From the NCBI RefSeq assembly GCF_000218895.1, contig NC_015703.1, positions 5,283,001-5,347,000 of the forward strand: a DNA stretch of 64,000 nt, in the 5' to 3' direction. Source of the DNA: Runella slithyformis DSM 19594 (GTDB lineage Bacteria > Bacteroidota > Bacteroidia > Cytophagales > Spirosomataceae). Positions within the stretch are counted from its first letter, which is position 1. Every line of letters begins with the position of its first letter. Both the position numbers and the translations under genes were made by a program. The notes beneath the pieces were generated by a model. The model ran no database searches and was not told the origin of the DNA. It was given only the letters and a program-made list of their open reading frames with translations. This document shows positions 16,782-22,627 of this stretch, piece after piece.

Positions 16782-17972
16782 CTATTCTACCCACAGTACC
16801 AAGCCCTTTAGATAACTGCCTTCGGGATGAAATAAATTGACGGGGTGGTCTGGGGGCTGGGTGATCTGATGCAGTACCCGAACTTGCCTGCCCGCTTCAA
16901 TTGCCGCCGCCACGATCGTATTATAAAACAGTTCACGGTCAACCACCTGCGAACAGGAAAAAGTAAACAGAATCCCATTGGCTTTTAAATGCCGTATACC
17001 CTCTGCATTCAAGCGTTTATATCCCTGCACCGCTCGATGACGAGCAGCCATACTTTTGGCAAAGGCCGGCGGGTCGAGCACCATTACATCGTACGTATCT
17101 GAGGTTTGCTTCAGGAATGCCATTACATCTTCGGCGTAGGACTGATGGGTGGCGGTTTCTCCGAAATTTGCCTGAACATTTTGATTGGTCAGCTCAATGG
17201 CCTTTTTGGAAACATCGACGGAATCTACCTGATCGGCCCCGGCCGCCAACGCATAAATGGAAAATCCGCCGGAATAACAGAAGGCATTCAGTACTTTTTT
17301 CCCTTTGGCGTAATAGGCCAACAGATCACGGTTGTTTCGTTGATCCAGAAAAAACCCTGTTTTTTGTCCGGTCTCCCAATCTATCAAAAAAGTGTGCCCA
17401 TTTTCCCGAACGGTATGAGGCACAGTACAACTCCCGAATAAATAGCTATTTTGTACATTTTTGGCAAAATTTTCGGGCAACGTCTCGGCACTTTTGTGAT
17501 AAATGGCTTTTAAGGCAATACCATACACATCCTGCAACGCAAGGGAAATATCTTCCAATACCCGATACATGCCAATGGAATGGGCCTGAACGACCGCAAC
17601 CCCGTTATAATAATCAATGATTAATCCGGGTAATCCATCCCCTTCTCCATGCACTAAGCGATAGCAATTGGTAGTATCAGCCGAATGATTGGCAAAAATA
17701 ACGTTCCGCACGGTGAGGGCATTTTGCAGTTTTTGCTTCCAAAATGCTACATCGGGCACTATTTTTTCGTAACTGAATAGCTTAACGGCAATAGTGCCAT
17801 TGTGATAGTGCCCCGTAGCCAGGTAGTTGTTACGACTATCTGTTACTTCGACAATATCACCGTCAGAAGGTTGGCCTTTCATGGAAGCAATTGCTCCTGA
17901 AAAAACCCACGGATGAAAACGGCGAACGGCTTCATCACGATTTGTTTTAAGAATAATTTGGGGAAACGTCAT
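16782..17972 (-). CDS. rlmI: 23S rRNA (cytosine-C5) methyltransferase, RlmI-like
   Basis: SAM-dependent methyltransferase of 396 residues with the RlmI architecture: N-terminal PUA RNA-binding domain (about 1-75; RRFHPWVFSGAI), a linker domain, then a Rossmann fold with motif I NAFCYSGGFSIYALAAGA, the acidic motif QVDSVDVSKKA, the DPPAF motif VLDPPAFAK and a late cysteine motif TFSCSQVV. In E. coli RlmI makes m5C1962 of 23S rRNA. It lies nine bases behind the HPr-kinase-like gene on the same strand and so is the last gene of the RiPP transcript, probably a passenger. Confidence 0.9.
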   Translation of the reverse strand: MTFPQIILKTNRDEAVRRFHPWVFSGAIASMKGQPSDGDIVEVTDSRNNYLATGHYHNGTIAVKLFSYEKIVPDVAFWKQKLQNALTVRNVIFANHSADTTNCYRLVHGEGDGLPGLIIDYYNGVAVVQAHSIGMYRVLEDISLALQDVYGIALKAIYHKSAETLPENFAKNVQNSYLFGSCTVPHTVRENGHTFLIDWETGQKTGFFLDQRNNRDLLAYYAKGKKVLNAFCYSGGFSIYALAAGADQVDSVDVSKKAIELTNQNVQANFGETATHQSYAEDVMAFLKQTSDTYDVMVLDPPAFAKSMAARHRAVQGYKRLNAEGIRHLKANGILFTFSCSQVVDRELFYNTIVAAAIEAGRQVRVLHQITQPPDHPVNLFHPEGSYLKGLVLWVE

Positions 17973-17981
17973 TGGCTTCAG

Positions 17982-18872
17982 TTAATATACCGGTACCTCC
18001 GGTCGGGAAACGTGTTCAACCCACGTTTTCAGTGCCTGATAACTGTCGGGGCGAGGAAATTTCAGGAGTTTTACGTGCTGAAGCAGTTGTTTGGTTTGCC
18101 AAAAATGGGTGAGCATTCGGCTTTCCGCCAAACATTCTTTCACCAATGGAAAATGCTTCACCAACTCTACGAACGCGTCTCCCCCCGTCAGTATTGTGGG
18201 TTTTTCCCCCAAAGATGGTGGATATAAACAATAAATGTAATCAACCCGACAATTTTTCAATTCCCGCCCCCCCCAAATGAAGCCATATTTATCTCCTTTC
18301 AAGACGTTTGAATACAGTTTATTTTTTTCAGAAAACTGAAATTCATTGGCCGAATCTTCCCATAATTTAGATTGTTTTATAAAAGAACAAATAGCAACAT
18401 TTTTAGGTCCAAGATGCTCAAATACAAGCAGATCATCTGCTACCAACTCTCCACCGGCTCTCACAAAAGCGATTGCCGTTGTAGATTTGCCGGCCCCCGA
18501 TTCTCCCACAAAAACAAAAGTCTTCTGATTGATCCTAACCGCACTTCCATGCAGCATATAAAACCCTCGCAAAAACAAAGCGATTCCGACGCCGTATTTC
18601 AGCAAAATCATGCGTTGAAATTCTGTCGTTATTTCCGTGTGTACCCGGATGTTATCACAACAAACGGTACAGGCCACTTCATGCGTCCAGCGAAAAAAGA
18701 AGGTTTCTGTATCAATCCAATAAGATTCAATGACAGAAGGGCTCAGTTCATGCTCTCTATAATCATAGCTCAACGTCAAAGGTAAGCTGTGTGTTTCAGG
18801 TGCTTTTTGGAAGAGTTCGGGAAAAAAAAGGGGAGATTGTAAATCTCCTCCAACACATTCATAGGTATACAT
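17982..18872 (-). CDS. HPr kinase-like serine kinase associated with a lasso-type RiPP locus
   Basis: A 296-residue protein with the HPr kinase/phosphorylase core: HGSAV (108-112), the P-loop GESGAGKST (123-131), the Walker-B-like LVADDLLV (143-150) and a C-terminal helical tail. Its length and the absent HPr-binding C-terminus separate it from true HPrK. In paeninodin-type clusters a homologue (PadeK) phosphorylates the C-terminal serine of the precursor peptide (established for that family). Here it lies downstream of the precursor genes and is likely to act on them; the intact precursor ends in Ser-Ala and the second in Thr-Asn, so the target hydroxyl would be penultimate. That site is inference. 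Followed after nine bases by rlmI. Confidence 0.82.
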   Translation of the reverse strand: MYTYECVGGDLQSPLFFPELFQKAPETHSLPLTLSYDYREHELSPSVIESYWIDTETFFFRWTHEVACTVCCDNIRVHTEITTEFQRMILLKYGVGIALFLRGFYMLHGSAVRINQKTFVFVGESGAGKSTTAIAFVRAGGELVADDLLVFEHLGPKNVAICSFIKQSKLWEDSANEFQFSEKNKLYSNVLKGDKYGFIWGGRELKNCRVDYIYCLYPPSLGEKPTILTGGDAFVELVKHFPLVKECLAESRMLTHFWQTKQLLQHVKLLKFPRPDSYQALKTWVEHVSRPEVPVY

Positions 18873-18904
18873 TCATAATGTAAAATAACGTCAATTCTTT
18901 TGAT

Positions 18905-19011
18905 TTAACCGTAAGTCGCGTTATCTCCACGGGTAAGCCCCTCAATGGTGCCATGTTATTTAGGAACCGGAGGGTGGCAGGAACGACTTTTTTATGAAGA
19001 CTGCTTTTCAT
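18905..19011 (-). pseudogene. Decayed third lasso-type precursor gene
   Basis: Begins at an ATG (19011) but the frame that resembles a precursor is one base off and interrupted. In that frame the residues CHPPVPK, a TAA stop (18958-18956), then HGTIEGLTRGDNATYG align position by position with YHAPQLKKYGPVANITRAD of the intact precursor. Tyr is replaced by Cys, Leu by Pro and one Lys by the stop, and the core ends after seven residues (GDNATYG), before the expected ring-closing Asp8. It is a dead copy by all these signs, lying just before the kinase gene. The alignment was made by eye. Confidence 0.55.
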
Positions 19012-19041
19012 AATATTTATTTGAATAAAGCAGGAAATTTA

Positions 19042-19187
19042 TCAGTTGGTTAAATAACCGCCAAATCCGTCAATATTTGTACCGACGTCGCCACGAACCC
19101 CCGCAACAATACCGTATTTTTTTAGTGAAAAGACTTTGTATTGACGCCGTTTAGTCCCTTTTTGCTTTTGGAAAGAATTCTTTTCAT
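19042..19187 (-). pseudogene. Second lasso-type precursor gene, frameshifted
   Basis: The frame ending at the TGA (19044-19042) encodes RRQYKVFSLKKYGIVAGV, then R, then a 16-residue core GDVGTNIDGFGGYLTN that matches the intact precursor core in length, Gly/Ala1, Asp2, Gly4-Thr5-Asn6, Asp8 and Gly11-Gly12. No start codon is in that frame; the ATG at 19187-19185 is one frame away, exactly one base short of the intact copy's spacing. The intervening run AAAAGCAAAAAGGG is an indel-prone place. Either a real one-base deletion, a sequencing error, or -1 frameshifting on the A-run would explain it. In the leader the usual Pro is Phe and the penultimate Thr is Val, which favours decay. Confidence 0.6.
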
Positions 19188-19272
19188 GAGAGATTTTTAA
19201 AGAGTATACCTTAAACAATATCTCAATAAATATATAAATAAAAAAATATACTAAAAATTTATCATTAGAAAT

Positions 19273-19314
19273 AAGGCATACAAAAGAGAATTTATCAGCT
19301 CTTTTATATGCCTT
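19273..19314 (-). terminator. Hairpin between first and second precursor genes
   Basis: AAGGCATA-c-AAAAGAG (19273-19288) pairs with CTCTTTT-a-TATGCCTT (19299-19314) around a ten-base loop, 20 bases beyond the stop of the intact precursor. On the minus strand TTATTT follows. It may partly terminate or stabilise the precursor message, giving more peptide than kinase, as often seen after RiPP precursor genes. Confidence 0.55.
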
Positions 19315-19333
19315 ACACTCACCTGATGACTGC

Positions 19334-19483
19334 CTAGGCAGATATGTCCCCCCCTAAACTATCGAGGTTGGTTCCTGAATCTGCACGAGTAATATTTGCA
19401 ACTGGACCATACTTTTTCAGCTGAGGGGCATGATAGCGCCGGCGCAGCCTGTTACTTTTGTCATTTTTGGGATTTAGTTTCAT
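19334..19483 (-). CDS. Lasso-peptide-type RiPP precursor, 49 residues
   Basis: A short gene read by translating the gap between the cyclase and kinase genes. The basic leader (residues 1-33) contains YHAPQLKKYGPVANIT (17-32), which fits the Y-x-x-P-x-L-x(3)-G-x(5)-T pattern bound by lasso B1 proteins, with Thr at the penultimate leader position followed by Arg33. The predicted core, ADSGTNLDSLGGDISA, would start at Ala34; an amide between Ala1 and the Asp8 side chain would give an eight-residue ring and an eight-residue tail. Ala1/Gly1 and Asp8 are kept in the second copy. The penultimate Ser could be the kinase target. Structure and cleavage site are inferred. Confidence 0.78.
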   Translation of the reverse strand: MKLNPKNDKSNRLRRRYHAPQLKKYGPVANITRADSGTNLDSLGGDISA

Positions 19484-19504
19484 AAGAGCAGCTTTCGTAA
19501 TATT

Positions 19505-19539
19505 GAAATATACCTTTATCCACTTAAAGATAGCACAAA
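19505..19539 (-). promoter_or_regulatory. Possible promoter of the precursor gene
   Basis: Minus strand: TTTG (19539-19536), 23 bases, TATATTTC (19512-19505), one base off the TAnnTTTG box, about 20 bases before the precursor ATG. It would let the precursor be made independently of the upstream cyclase. Confidence 0.35.
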
Positions 19540-19614
19540 TTTCTTTTTCAGCATCTTCAATTACACATTAGTATATTTTTTTTTGTTTTATTGCCCGCAT
19601 ACTTGCTTTAACAT

Positions 19615-21684
19615 TCAATATCGCTTTCTTATTTTAAAATAGTTGTCAAGCCAGTTGATGAAGAAATAGGAAAACATCAAGGATTGATATAACGGTATTT
19701 TGTGGGAGACCGGCAGCAGGTCATTATGCAATAATTGCTCATTTTTTTCAAGCATTTCCGTATCAAGGTATTCCCTGTAGAGGTGTTTCTGAGTATGAAA
19801 ATTCACTAACCACGACGGATTTACATTCGCCCAAAAATGGTACACATAAGGAGTAAACTCCACTTTAGAGGTGCGAGTGCGTACTTCTTCAGGCAAAACC
19901 CCCACCATTGCCCTTCGTAACGGGCCTCGTTTCCAGCCATTATCAAATTTAAACTCCGGAGGAATCGCCATACAAAGTTCTCGGAGACGTTTGTCTAAGA
20001 AGGGATGATTGATCTCTGATAAATAATAGCTTCCAATCGTTGCCAAGAGTTCGTTTGTATTGACCAACGACCCGGAATTTTGCAGATTATCTTTTAAAAT
20101 GTGCAAATTATCGTCGTCATAAGCAGGTTGGTAAATGCGTTGCAGTACTTCATTTACACGCTTTTTATTCAAAAAACTTGGTAACACCAACGCTGAAGCA
20201 GGAGAAAAATTCAGTATCAGGGTTACTTTTTCCCACCAATAAATCAAGGACTTACCCAACAGAGACGGGCGTTGAATAAGGCAGATTGCCATCTTGCTTA
20301 GATAAAACAATTTGCCCGAAAGAGGCTGTTGTGCCAATTCATCAAAACAATACCTCAAAAGTGTACCGTCTCGCTGTTTATCAGTACTTCCATTTTTTTC
20401 AATCATCCCGGAAATTGCCCGCTTAAATAACGTCCACTTTTTCTCTTTCAGCAATCCTCTTAAATAACTACCCCCATGCCCGACAACAGTATCTCCATCA
20501 TGACCGGTCAACAATACACGATTAGAATTTTTCAGCATTGTTTCGTATAAAGGCCTAAAGTTATGGAAATCTAAAGGAAGCGTTTCAGGATATCCCACGC
20601 ACTGGTGGTAAATATTCATCGAACCGTAAAAGTCAGCGTGTGCCTCCGTATAGACGTGGTTCATGGAAGGATACAGATTCAATACATATTCCACATAAGC
20701 GGTTTCATCCGTCATGGGCAGATTTGTTTTTAAATGGAAAGTATTCAATTGACGGCCTTGCTTTTCCAAATGATTTTGAGCTAGACAACTTACCGACGAT
20801 GAATCCAGCCCTCCGCTTAAATGCGAGCCAATGCCAAAGGGAGTTCTGATTCGGCACGCTACGGCTTCTTCAAAGTATACTTTAAAACATTCGGCAAAAT
20901 CCTCGGGCGTCTTGAGATGACTAAAGCGTTCCAATTGAAAGTCAAGATTTAATTTCAGCTCAGAGGAAGACGAATTGAATATCCCTAACTGCGAAAAATG
21001 TAACGTTTTTATATGCTTGAACATAGTATCAGTATGATAAAAGCGATAGCCTGTGAGGGCCGATAAATACACCGCCGCTTTTTCTTCGTTGAGTTGTTTA
21101 GGCACCTCCGGTAAGGCTAAGAGCGCTTTTAACTCACTCGCAAAAGCAAAGCAAACGCCGGGCTTGTGAAAATAGTAAAACGTCCGAATACCGCTGTGGT
21201 CACGCCCGCAAATAAACGATTGACGATTTTCGTCCCACAGCGCAAAGGCAAAATCCCCCACAAGGTGATACAAAAGGCCGTCACCCCATTTTTGGTATGC
21301 AGCCAGTATCAGTTCAGCATCGGTCGGCTCATCAGAGATGCTTTTTTGAATCAAATGACTTAGCGGTTGTTCCGCGATGATCGTACCGTCCGGTAGGCGC
21401 AAGGGCGAGGTGGTTTTATCAAGACCAAGTTGGGCATATAATTCTTTACGATTATCAACCCGGGCATCTGCAACAAGTACTAAACCTGACGAGCTTACCA
21501 ATGGTTGTTGCTCATAAAGCGATTCATGGGTAACATGCAGCATTAAGTGCGCTAAACCTACAGAACCATTTCGGTATAATTTTATGCCGTCGGGACCACG
21601 ATGAGAGAGTGGATGAACCATATGTTGCAGTTCGTCCTCCACTTCCCGTCCGTCAAAATAAATAATTCCGCAAATTCCGCTCAT
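19615..21684 (-). CDS. Asparagine-synthetase-like lasso peptide cyclase (C protein)
   Basis: A 689-residue protein with an N-terminal glutaminase-like domain (LSHRGPDG at 26-33; GDFAFALWD at 143-151) and a C-terminal ATP-pyrophosphatase domain with the PP-loop SGGLDSS (290-296). It begins MSGICGI: the catalytic Cys2 of true asparagine synthetase is Ser, so it cannot release ammonia from glutamine in the usual way. Such degenerate AsnB proteins next to a small precursor with a Y-P leader are lasso cyclases, which activate a side-chain Asp/Glu with ATP and close the macrolactam on the core's N-terminus. It is first in the transcript. The B1/B2 partners are absent nearby. Confidence 0.85.
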   Translation of the reverse strand: MSGICGIIYFDGREVEDELQHMVHPLSHRGPDGIKLYRNGSVGLAHLMLHVTHESLYEQQPLVSSSGLVLVADARVDNRKELYAQLGLDKTTSPLRLPDGTIIAEQPLSHLIQKSISDEPTDAELILAAYQKWGDGLLYHLVGDFAFALWDENRQSFICGRDHSGIRTFYYFHKPGVCFAFASELKALLALPEVPKQLNEEKAAVYLSALTGYRFYHTDTMFKHIKTLHFSQLGIFNSSSSELKLNLDFQLERFSHLKTPEDFAECFKVYFEEAVACRIRTPFGIGSHLSGGLDSSSVSCLAQNHLEKQGRQLNTFHLKTNLPMTDETAYVEYVLNLYPSMNHVYTEAHADFYGSMNIYHQCVGYPETLPLDFHNFRPLYETMLKNSNRVLLTGHDGDTVVGHGGSYLRGLLKEKKWTLFKRAISGMIEKNGSTDKQRDGTLLRYCFDELAQQPLSGKLFYLSKMAICLIQRPSLLGKSLIYWWEKVTLILNFSPASALVLPSFLNKKRVNEVLQRIYQPAYDDDNLHILKDNLQNSGSLVNTNELLATIGSYYLSEINHPFLDKRLRELCMAIPPEFKFDNGWKRGPLRRAMVGVLPEEVRTRTSKVEFTPYVYHFWANVNPSWLVNFHTQKHLYREYLDTEMLEKNEQLLHNDLLPVSHKIPLYQSLMFSYFFINWLDNYFKIRKRY

Positions 21685-21790: not shown

Positions 21791-22627
21791 ATGAACCGTC
21801 GGAATTTCATCAAACAATCTGCCCTTTTGGGAGTAGGCCCTGTCATCGCACCAAGTCTCTTTGCCGAAGCAAAAAAGCTCAAAAAATTTGGGGTTCAATT
21901 ATACAGTGTGCGCGACCTGATGCCGAAAGATGCCAAGGGCACCATGAAAAAATTGGCCGAATTGGGCTATACCCAGTTTGAAAGCTACGGTGGACCGGAT
22001 TTTCTTTGGGGCATGAGTCCGTCTGAATGCAAAACCTATCTAAACGACTTAGGCGTAAAGATGATAAGTACCCACTTTGATATCAATAAAGACTTGGATA
22101 AAAACATTGAGCGGGGTGCCGAAGCAGGTCTGCAATACATGCTTTGTCCGTACATCGGTCCCCAGAAAACCATAGATGCCTGGAAGAAAAAGGCCGACTT
22201 GTTCAACGAAGTTGGCGAAAAGGTCACAAAAGCAGGGATGAAGTTTGGCTACCACAATCACGATTACTCCTTCAAGCCGCTGGACGGTCAGATTCCTCAC
22301 GAAGTACTACTGGCAAATACCGACCCTAAAAAGGTAATGTTTGAACTGGATCTGTGTTGGGTCATTGCTTCCGGCCAGGATGCCGTTGCTCACCTGAACA
22401 AGTATGCAGACCGCTACGAACTGGTACACATCAAGGATATGGTAAAAGAAGGCGGCAAAGTAGTACAGAAAGACTTTGGAACAGGAACGGTCGACTACCC
22501 AACCATTCTCAAAGCAGCGAAGAAAGCGGGCATCAAGTATTATATCGTTGAGCAGGAAGAATATCCTGTCTCCTCCCTGGCAAGTATGAAAGTGGATGCT
22601 GATTGGATGAAAAAACTTTCGATTTAA
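21791..22627 (+). CDS. Exported sugar phosphate isomerase/epimerase-like TIM-barrel protein
   Basis: A 278-residue xylose-isomerase-like TIM barrel (AP endonuclease 2 superfamily). The N-terminus MNRRNFIKQSALLGVG is a twin-arginine-type signal, so export in folded form is likely. The expected acidic metal ligands are visible in FELDLCWVIASG and EQEEYP, with histidines in STHFDINKD, GYHNHDYSF and LVHIKDM. These proteins are common in Bacteroidota sugar loci and have varied substrates; none can be assigned here. Divergent from the cyclase gene and followed by a good terminator. Confidence 0.85.
   Translation: MNRRNFIKQSALLGVGPVIAPSLFAEAKKLKKFGVQLYSVRDLMPKDAKGTMKKLAELGYTQFESYGGPDFLWGMSPSECKTYLNDLGVKMISTHFDINKDLDKNIERGAEAGLQYMLCPYIGPQKTIDAWKKKADLFNEVGEKVTKAGMKFGYHNHDYSFKPLDGQIPHEVLLANTDPKKVMFELDLCWVIASGQDAVAHLNKYADRYELVHIKDMVKEGGKVVQKDFGTGTVDYPTILKAAKKAGIKYYIVEQEEYPVSSLASMKVDADWMKKLSI

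Follow-up and report, generated by a model that had tools for sequence, protein, structure and literature searches.

Gene content of the locus

A putative lasso peptide locus occupies part of the window, which is the whole stretch of 64,000 nt analysed here (Runella slithyformis DSM 19594, NC_015703.1 5,283,001-5,347,000; coordinates are those of the window unless a contig or another locus is named). It reads on the minus strand in the order cyclase C (21684-19615), precursor-type sequences A1, A2 and A3, and kinase K (18872-17982), and lies between two genes outside the system:

21791..22627, plus strand: right flank, outside the system; xylose-isomerase-like TIM barrel, conserved in Runella, bordering the site that is empty in relatives
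19615..21684, minus strand: C, lasso macrolactam synthetase, AsnB-like, with Ser2, intact, SGGLDSSS motif present (NF033535, family-invariant columns)
19334..19483, minus strand: A1, intact precursor with leader MKLNPKNDKSNRLRRRYHAPQLKKYGPVANITR and core ADSGTNLDSLGGDISA, predicted ring Ala1-Asp8 (precursor profile)
~19042..19187, minus strand: A2, frame-broken precursor copy with the core-like sequence GDVGTNIDGFGGYLTN (profile E=0.005, shuffles)
~18905..19011, minus strand: A3, decayed precursor relic, CHPPVPK*HGTIEGLTR GDNATYG* (shuffle score, stops, frame break)
17982..18872, minus strand: K, HprK-like peptide kinase, P-loop GESGAGKST, H108/D146/D147 intact (PF07475, motif spacing)
16782..17972, minus strand: left flank, outside the system; SAM-dependent methyltransferase with a PUA-like domain, RlmI-like (name inferred), conserved in Runella

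This gene content and its motifs bear out an earlier, sequence-only reading of the DNA, which had described a coherent lasso-type locus with a cyclase, a kinase and a precursor that follows the leader rule. B1 and B2 genes are absent from the window locus, as is a transporter gene. The coding parts resemble the flanks in G+C and the precursor gap alone is low, so base composition does not support a foreign origin.

C encodes 689 aa in an uninterrupted frame beginning MSGICG. It matches the model for lasso peptide isopeptide bond-forming cyclases (NF033535) with E=1.3e-131 and 440 bits, below the cut-off of 525 bits, and ordinary asparagine synthase models match it far more weakly. In an alignment of ten cyclases C retains every family-invariant column and its synthetase motifs are intact, in agreement with the proposal of an AsnB-like cyclase. 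The Ser that was pointed out in place of Cys2 is indeed there, but it is no oddity; residue 2 is Ser in nine of the ten aligned relatives (Asn in the other), and Ser2 is therefore a family trait. A search of solved structures returned AsnB-like and HprK relatives alone, with no lasso cyclase or lasso kinase among them.

One credible precursor and two decayed copies

The leader rule is complete in A1 (Tyr-17, Pro-14, Leu-12, Gly-8, Thr-2), and positions -17, -14 and -2 of the precursors studied here agree with the numbering of BsfA (PMC10368454). A1 thus carries the YxxPxL leader motif, Thr at -2 and an Asp/Glu at core position 7-9; its core, ADSGTNLDSLGGDISA, has 16 residues with a predicted ring from Ala1 to Asp8. 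We built a precursor profile from 20 sequences of Spirosomataceae, Spirosoma and Oscillatoria, with A1 as one row and A2 not included. None of these 20 precursors departs from Tyr, Pro, Gly and Thr(-2) in the leader or from Gly at one core position. Against the whole genome of R. slithyformis the profile found A1 with E=4e-15, a value to be read in light of A1 being itself a profile row, and A2 with E=0.005. Two independent NCBIfam models also match A1, both weakly and below cut-off (lasso_cyano, E=0.0014; lasso_leader_L3, E=0.0034). The core nearest to that of A1 belongs to Oscillatoria PCC 10802, GISGSNTDGMGGNLV.

Profile and shuffle tests confirm that the gap between C and K holds three precursor-type stretches, one intact, one frameshifted and one decayed, as the earlier reading had it. 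The protein alignment of A2 with A1 scored 83 against a best shuffle of 44, and A3 scored 45 at the protein level against a shuffle maximum of 36 (1000 dinucleotide shuffles each); a spacer used as control was not significant at the protein level, with its 1000 dinucleotide shuffles not all exceeded. Alignments of A1, A2 and A3 as DNA scored no better than shuffles, and we therefore claim similarity at the protein level alone. The frame of A2 is broken from its ATG and its sole open reading starts at an upstream TTG; its leader is one residue shorter, has lost Pro-14 and has Val for Thr at -2, and the sequence ends in LTN. We set aside a programmed frameshift, because leader residues of A2 are lost as well. 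A3 carries stops and a frame break and is therefore taken as a relic. Judged from their sequences, A1 is the one credible precursor, and A2 and A3 appear as dead or nearly dead copies.

The kinase and its likely target

K (296 aa, uninterrupted frame) matches Hpr_kinase_C (PF07475) weakly, with E=6.6e-8 and 32.7 bits, just below the cut-off of 33.3 bits. It keeps all eight lasso-kinase catalytic positions (H108, G123, G126, G128, K129, S130, D146, D147) at a spacing identical to that of the BsfK motif, H148-G163-G166-G168-K169-S170-D186-D187 (PMC10368454). The weak domain match and the retained positions uphold the call of an HPr-kinase-like enzyme. K is very divergent, with an end branch of 2.77 changes per site and 25% identity with the genome's second kinase, and the activity of a protein on such a long branch may have changed or faded.

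Paeninodin-type kinases modify the C-terminal Ser of the core. The A1 core ends in ISA, without a C-terminal Ser, and has a Ser at position 3, and strict membership in the paeninodin type is rejected for want of the C-terminal Ser. Given the absence of the C-terminal Ser and a kinase motif that matches BsfK, the paeninodin label suggested earlier fits loosely; the cyclase, the HprK-like kinase and the leader rule agree with that combination, whereas the core ending and the strong divergence of the kinase do not. BsfK phosphorylates core Ser3, a reaction that the RRE of the bsf system speeds up (PMC10368454). By analogy, Ser3 would be a better guess for the phosphosite of A1 than a C-terminal Ser.

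A single B1-B2 pair elsewhere in the genome

The genome (6 contigs, 6,919,729 bases) contains a single match to PF05402 (B1, the PqqD-like RRE that binds the leader) and a single match to PF13471 (B2, the transglutaminase-like leader peptidase), adjacent to each other at C4:4067908-4068490 and 1.23 Mb from the window. The genome search for B1 and B2 that the sequence-only reading had proposed thus returned exactly one of each with these two Pfam models. B1 scores 67.8 bits with PF05402 and 67.7 bits with NF033536 (below its cut-off of 80 bits), and B2 scores 74.7 bits with NF033537 (above its cut-off of 33 bits). The gene order of this hub is C2 (a divergent cyclase on the opposite strand), B1, B2 and the second kinase. 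It retains the hub neighbourhood of relatives without a window-type C-A pair, and no precursor is visible beside it, including by the precursor-profile search of the genome. A further precursor lies apart from both loci:

C4:3581872-3582021 (L204:7873-8022): orphan intact precursor with leader MKQTLHTSKKLSSSSKRVYKSPKLRTIGKVKTLTA and core KMGSQNDTFTTFSA, adjoining a type IX sorting-domain gene

Five Runella relatives have a cyclase at the orphan site that is missing from R. slithyformis. The orphan core resembles the KxGSxxD cores of precursors that adjoin C2-type cyclases, and its leader motif is identical to that of A1.

Elsewhere, C2-type cyclases occur near a probable lipoprotein of ~230 aa (L020:3252-9191, L033, L035, L179, L189-L192), most of these loci also with a ~1080 aa protein and L020 with a C25 peptidase. 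In several hubs the gene after the kinase is of the NTP_transf_5 family (L025:3348-4568, L176:9262-10371), which is the arrangement of pseudomycoidin-type clusters; the sole NTP_transf_5 gene of R. slithyformis, at C4:4539263, is unlinked to hub and window.

Relatives within Runella

The flanking methyltransferase and TIM-barrel genes are adjacent in ten other Runella genomes, separated by a short gap with no C or K between them, and the window locus is therefore species-specific among the sampled genomes. Cyclase loci elsewhere in relatives usually carry precursors of the A1-like pattern. In Runella relatives a single block holds C, A, B1 and K. It includes B2 in L025, L026 and L030 and not in L031 or L027; in the latter two genomes K follows B1 directly and B2 is missing (L031:14412-15000, L027:9083-10144). 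Several Runella blocks have an ABC transporter, a long C25-peptidase-like protein and a lipoprotein within or nearby. A second and distinct lasso-like cluster, K-B2-C-B1, is present in three Runella genomes (L180, L181, L182).

Unlinked lasso genes across Spirosomataceae

We searched 150 Spirosomataceae genomes for C and B2 and treated genes at most 15 kb apart as linked. There were 45 C matches, 39 of them in B2-bearing genomes, where 15 lay within 15 kb of B2 and 24 lay farther away. The window C is not particularly close to any C linked to a B1-B2(-K)-type hub, with at most 37% identity. Run on 59 relatives, the precursor profile produced 54 matches, spread over 19 genomes; 6 of the 54 lay within 15 kb of B2 (48 did not) and 30 lay that close to a C. 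These counts come in part from draft genomes, in which contig breaks can mask linkage; separation on one contig was seen in G000, G009, G015, G029, G036, G558, G546, G551 and G466.

Of the 13 genomes in which no precursor is linked to B2, 12 had a B2, against 2 of 40 precursor-free genomes (Fisher p=4e-9, uncorrected for ancestry), and this co-occurrence supports maturation in trans. In one genome (G023), nine precursors and five cyclases accompany one such hub, with a second PF13471 locus of another type; in another (G036), seven precursors occur with two cyclases and a single B2.

Neighbours of the dispersed precursors

Type IX sorting domains were found in 17 of 20 scanned neighbours of dispersed precursors (one weakly) and curlin repeats in 2 of the 20, compared with type IX sorting domains in 1 of 48 window genes and 3 of 77 hub-locus genes. 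The neighbours were picked by adjacency after their C-termini had been seen and the control profile was built from the hits, and the contrast is therefore indicative and no clean test. That dispersed precursors so regularly adjoin genes for type IX-secreted or curli-like proteins suggests a putative surface role. The window locus is without such a neighbour.

At L251, L252 and L254-L261, lasso-type precursors adjoin genes for type IX-secreted or curlin-repeat proteins, the retrieved sequence encodes no lasso enzyme, and a single genome holds up to nine precursors.

A probable satellite of a remote hub

We conclude that the window locus is probably a satellite in a hub-and-satellite lasso system and borrows B1 and B2 from the hub 1.23 Mb away; we put the probability of this at about 0.7. 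In this scenario, the satellite would supply the substrate A1, the ring-closing synthetase C and the tailoring kinase K. Upon expression of A1, hub B1 would bind its leader via Tyr-17, Pro-14 and Leu-12, and K may phosphorylate a core hydroxyl, most likely that of Ser3 and possibly that of Thr5 or Ser15. B2 would cleave after Arg-1, with Thr at -2, and C would join the amine of Ala1 to Asp8 around the tail. The product would be a threaded 16-residue lasso of M 1473.66, or 1553.62 with one phosphate. For comparison, B1 and B2 of paeninodin function as separate proteins, and the affinity of its B1 for the leader is about 5 nM (PMC5067487).

Against the satellite reading stand the long branch of K, the lack of a transporter gene in the locus, the modest identity of the window C to hub-linked cyclases and the decay of two of the three precursor copies, which would equally suit a locus that is being lost. 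The locus could be a dying fragment of an imported cluster, with B1, B2 and the transporter never co-imported or since lost and A1 as the last unbroken copy, and such an origin would agree with the broken A2 and A3, the restriction to one species, the highly diverged K and the absence of B genes and a transporter nearby. We consider it unlikely, because the frames of C (689 aa), K (296 aa) and A1 are all open and their catalytic or leader residues retained, unlinked C-A pairs occur frequently among family genomes and a B1-B2 pair is present in the genome. Less probable still is that the hub is dedicated to C2 and to the orphan precursor with core KMGSQNDTFTTFSA at 3.58 Mb, with the window peptide left linear or cut by another protease. 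C2 does adjoin B1, and the orphan resembles, in its KxGSxxD-type core, the precursors found next to C2-type cyclases. However, A1 and the orphan share the same leader motif, RRE affinity resides in the leader and not the core in paeninodin (PMC5067487), and the genome search returned no further PF05402 or PF13471 gene.

The hub-and-satellite arrangement may have a counterpart across the family. We give roughly even odds to the broader proposal that in Spirosomataceae one B1-B2(-K) hub serves several dispersed cyclases and up to nine dispersed precursors, most of them encoded together with surface proteins that are type IX-secreted or curli-like, so that the lasso peptides would be accessories of surface proteins and not free antibiotics. 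The window locus would then be a kinase-bearing satellite that lacks such a neighbour.

Relation to known systems

Lasso genes are usually described as single clusters, and genome mining usually seeks A, B and C side by side; split systems would therefore be called incomplete or missed. Spirosomataceae depart from this pattern, in that their lasso genes are frequently dispersed and apparently share a single hub for processing. Should a single B1-B2 pair mature numerous precursors to which it is not linked, the pathway would be defined by leader recognition and not by gene linkage, and a whole bacterial family would offer lasso peptides that have yet to be mined and that may be phosphorylated. 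A passage in PMC7533575, citing Tietz 2017, describes Bacteroidetes as an underexplored lasso peptide source. In the part of the literature that was searched, no paper joined lasso peptides with type IX secretion or with R. slithyformis, and novelty is therefore claimed provisionally.

Paeninodin-type clusters of Paenibacillus share with the window locus an AsnB-like cyclase, an HprK-like kinase, a Tyr-x-x-Pro leader and a Cys-free core. The window core differs in ending with Ala instead of Ser, and the locus in having B1 and B2 outside the cluster, three precursor copies and a very divergent kinase. The bsf cluster of Bradymonas sediminis (PMC10368454) has the kinase motif H-G-G-G-K-S-D-D with identical spacing, leader Tyr-17/Pro-14/Leu-12, core Ser3 and no C-terminal Ser; its genes, with B1, B2, D and N among them, form a single complete cluster and its precursor has Ile at -2, whereas the window precursor has Thr at -2 and the genes are split. 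Loci of Oscillatoria PCC 10802 and Spirosoma (L044, L098) have a similar G-[ST]-N-x-D-[GS]-[FML]-G-G-like core and the same gene families, with B1 and B2 linked to C, A and K, unlike the window locus; the Spirosoma ring is predicted as Lys1-Asp7, unlike Ala1-Asp8 in A1.

Unclustered maturation enzymes are known for RiPPs, including lanthipeptide proteases (PMC8960859) and the citrulassin deiminase (reviewed in PMC9266682). The window system would share with them an enzyme that acts from another locus, but here it is the primary leader-binding and cleavage pair that is remote, and it is apparently common to many precursors.

The pairing of cyclase and kinase, previously placed in Firmicutes and Proteobacteria, is not confined to them; we found it in Cyanobacteria, archaea, Acidobacteriota, Rhodothermales, Mesorhizobium and Spirosoma. 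Archaea-labelled contigs of Euryarchaeota bins and Methanothrix carry genes for a lasso cyclase, B1, B2 and a kinase (L062, L064; L068, L072).
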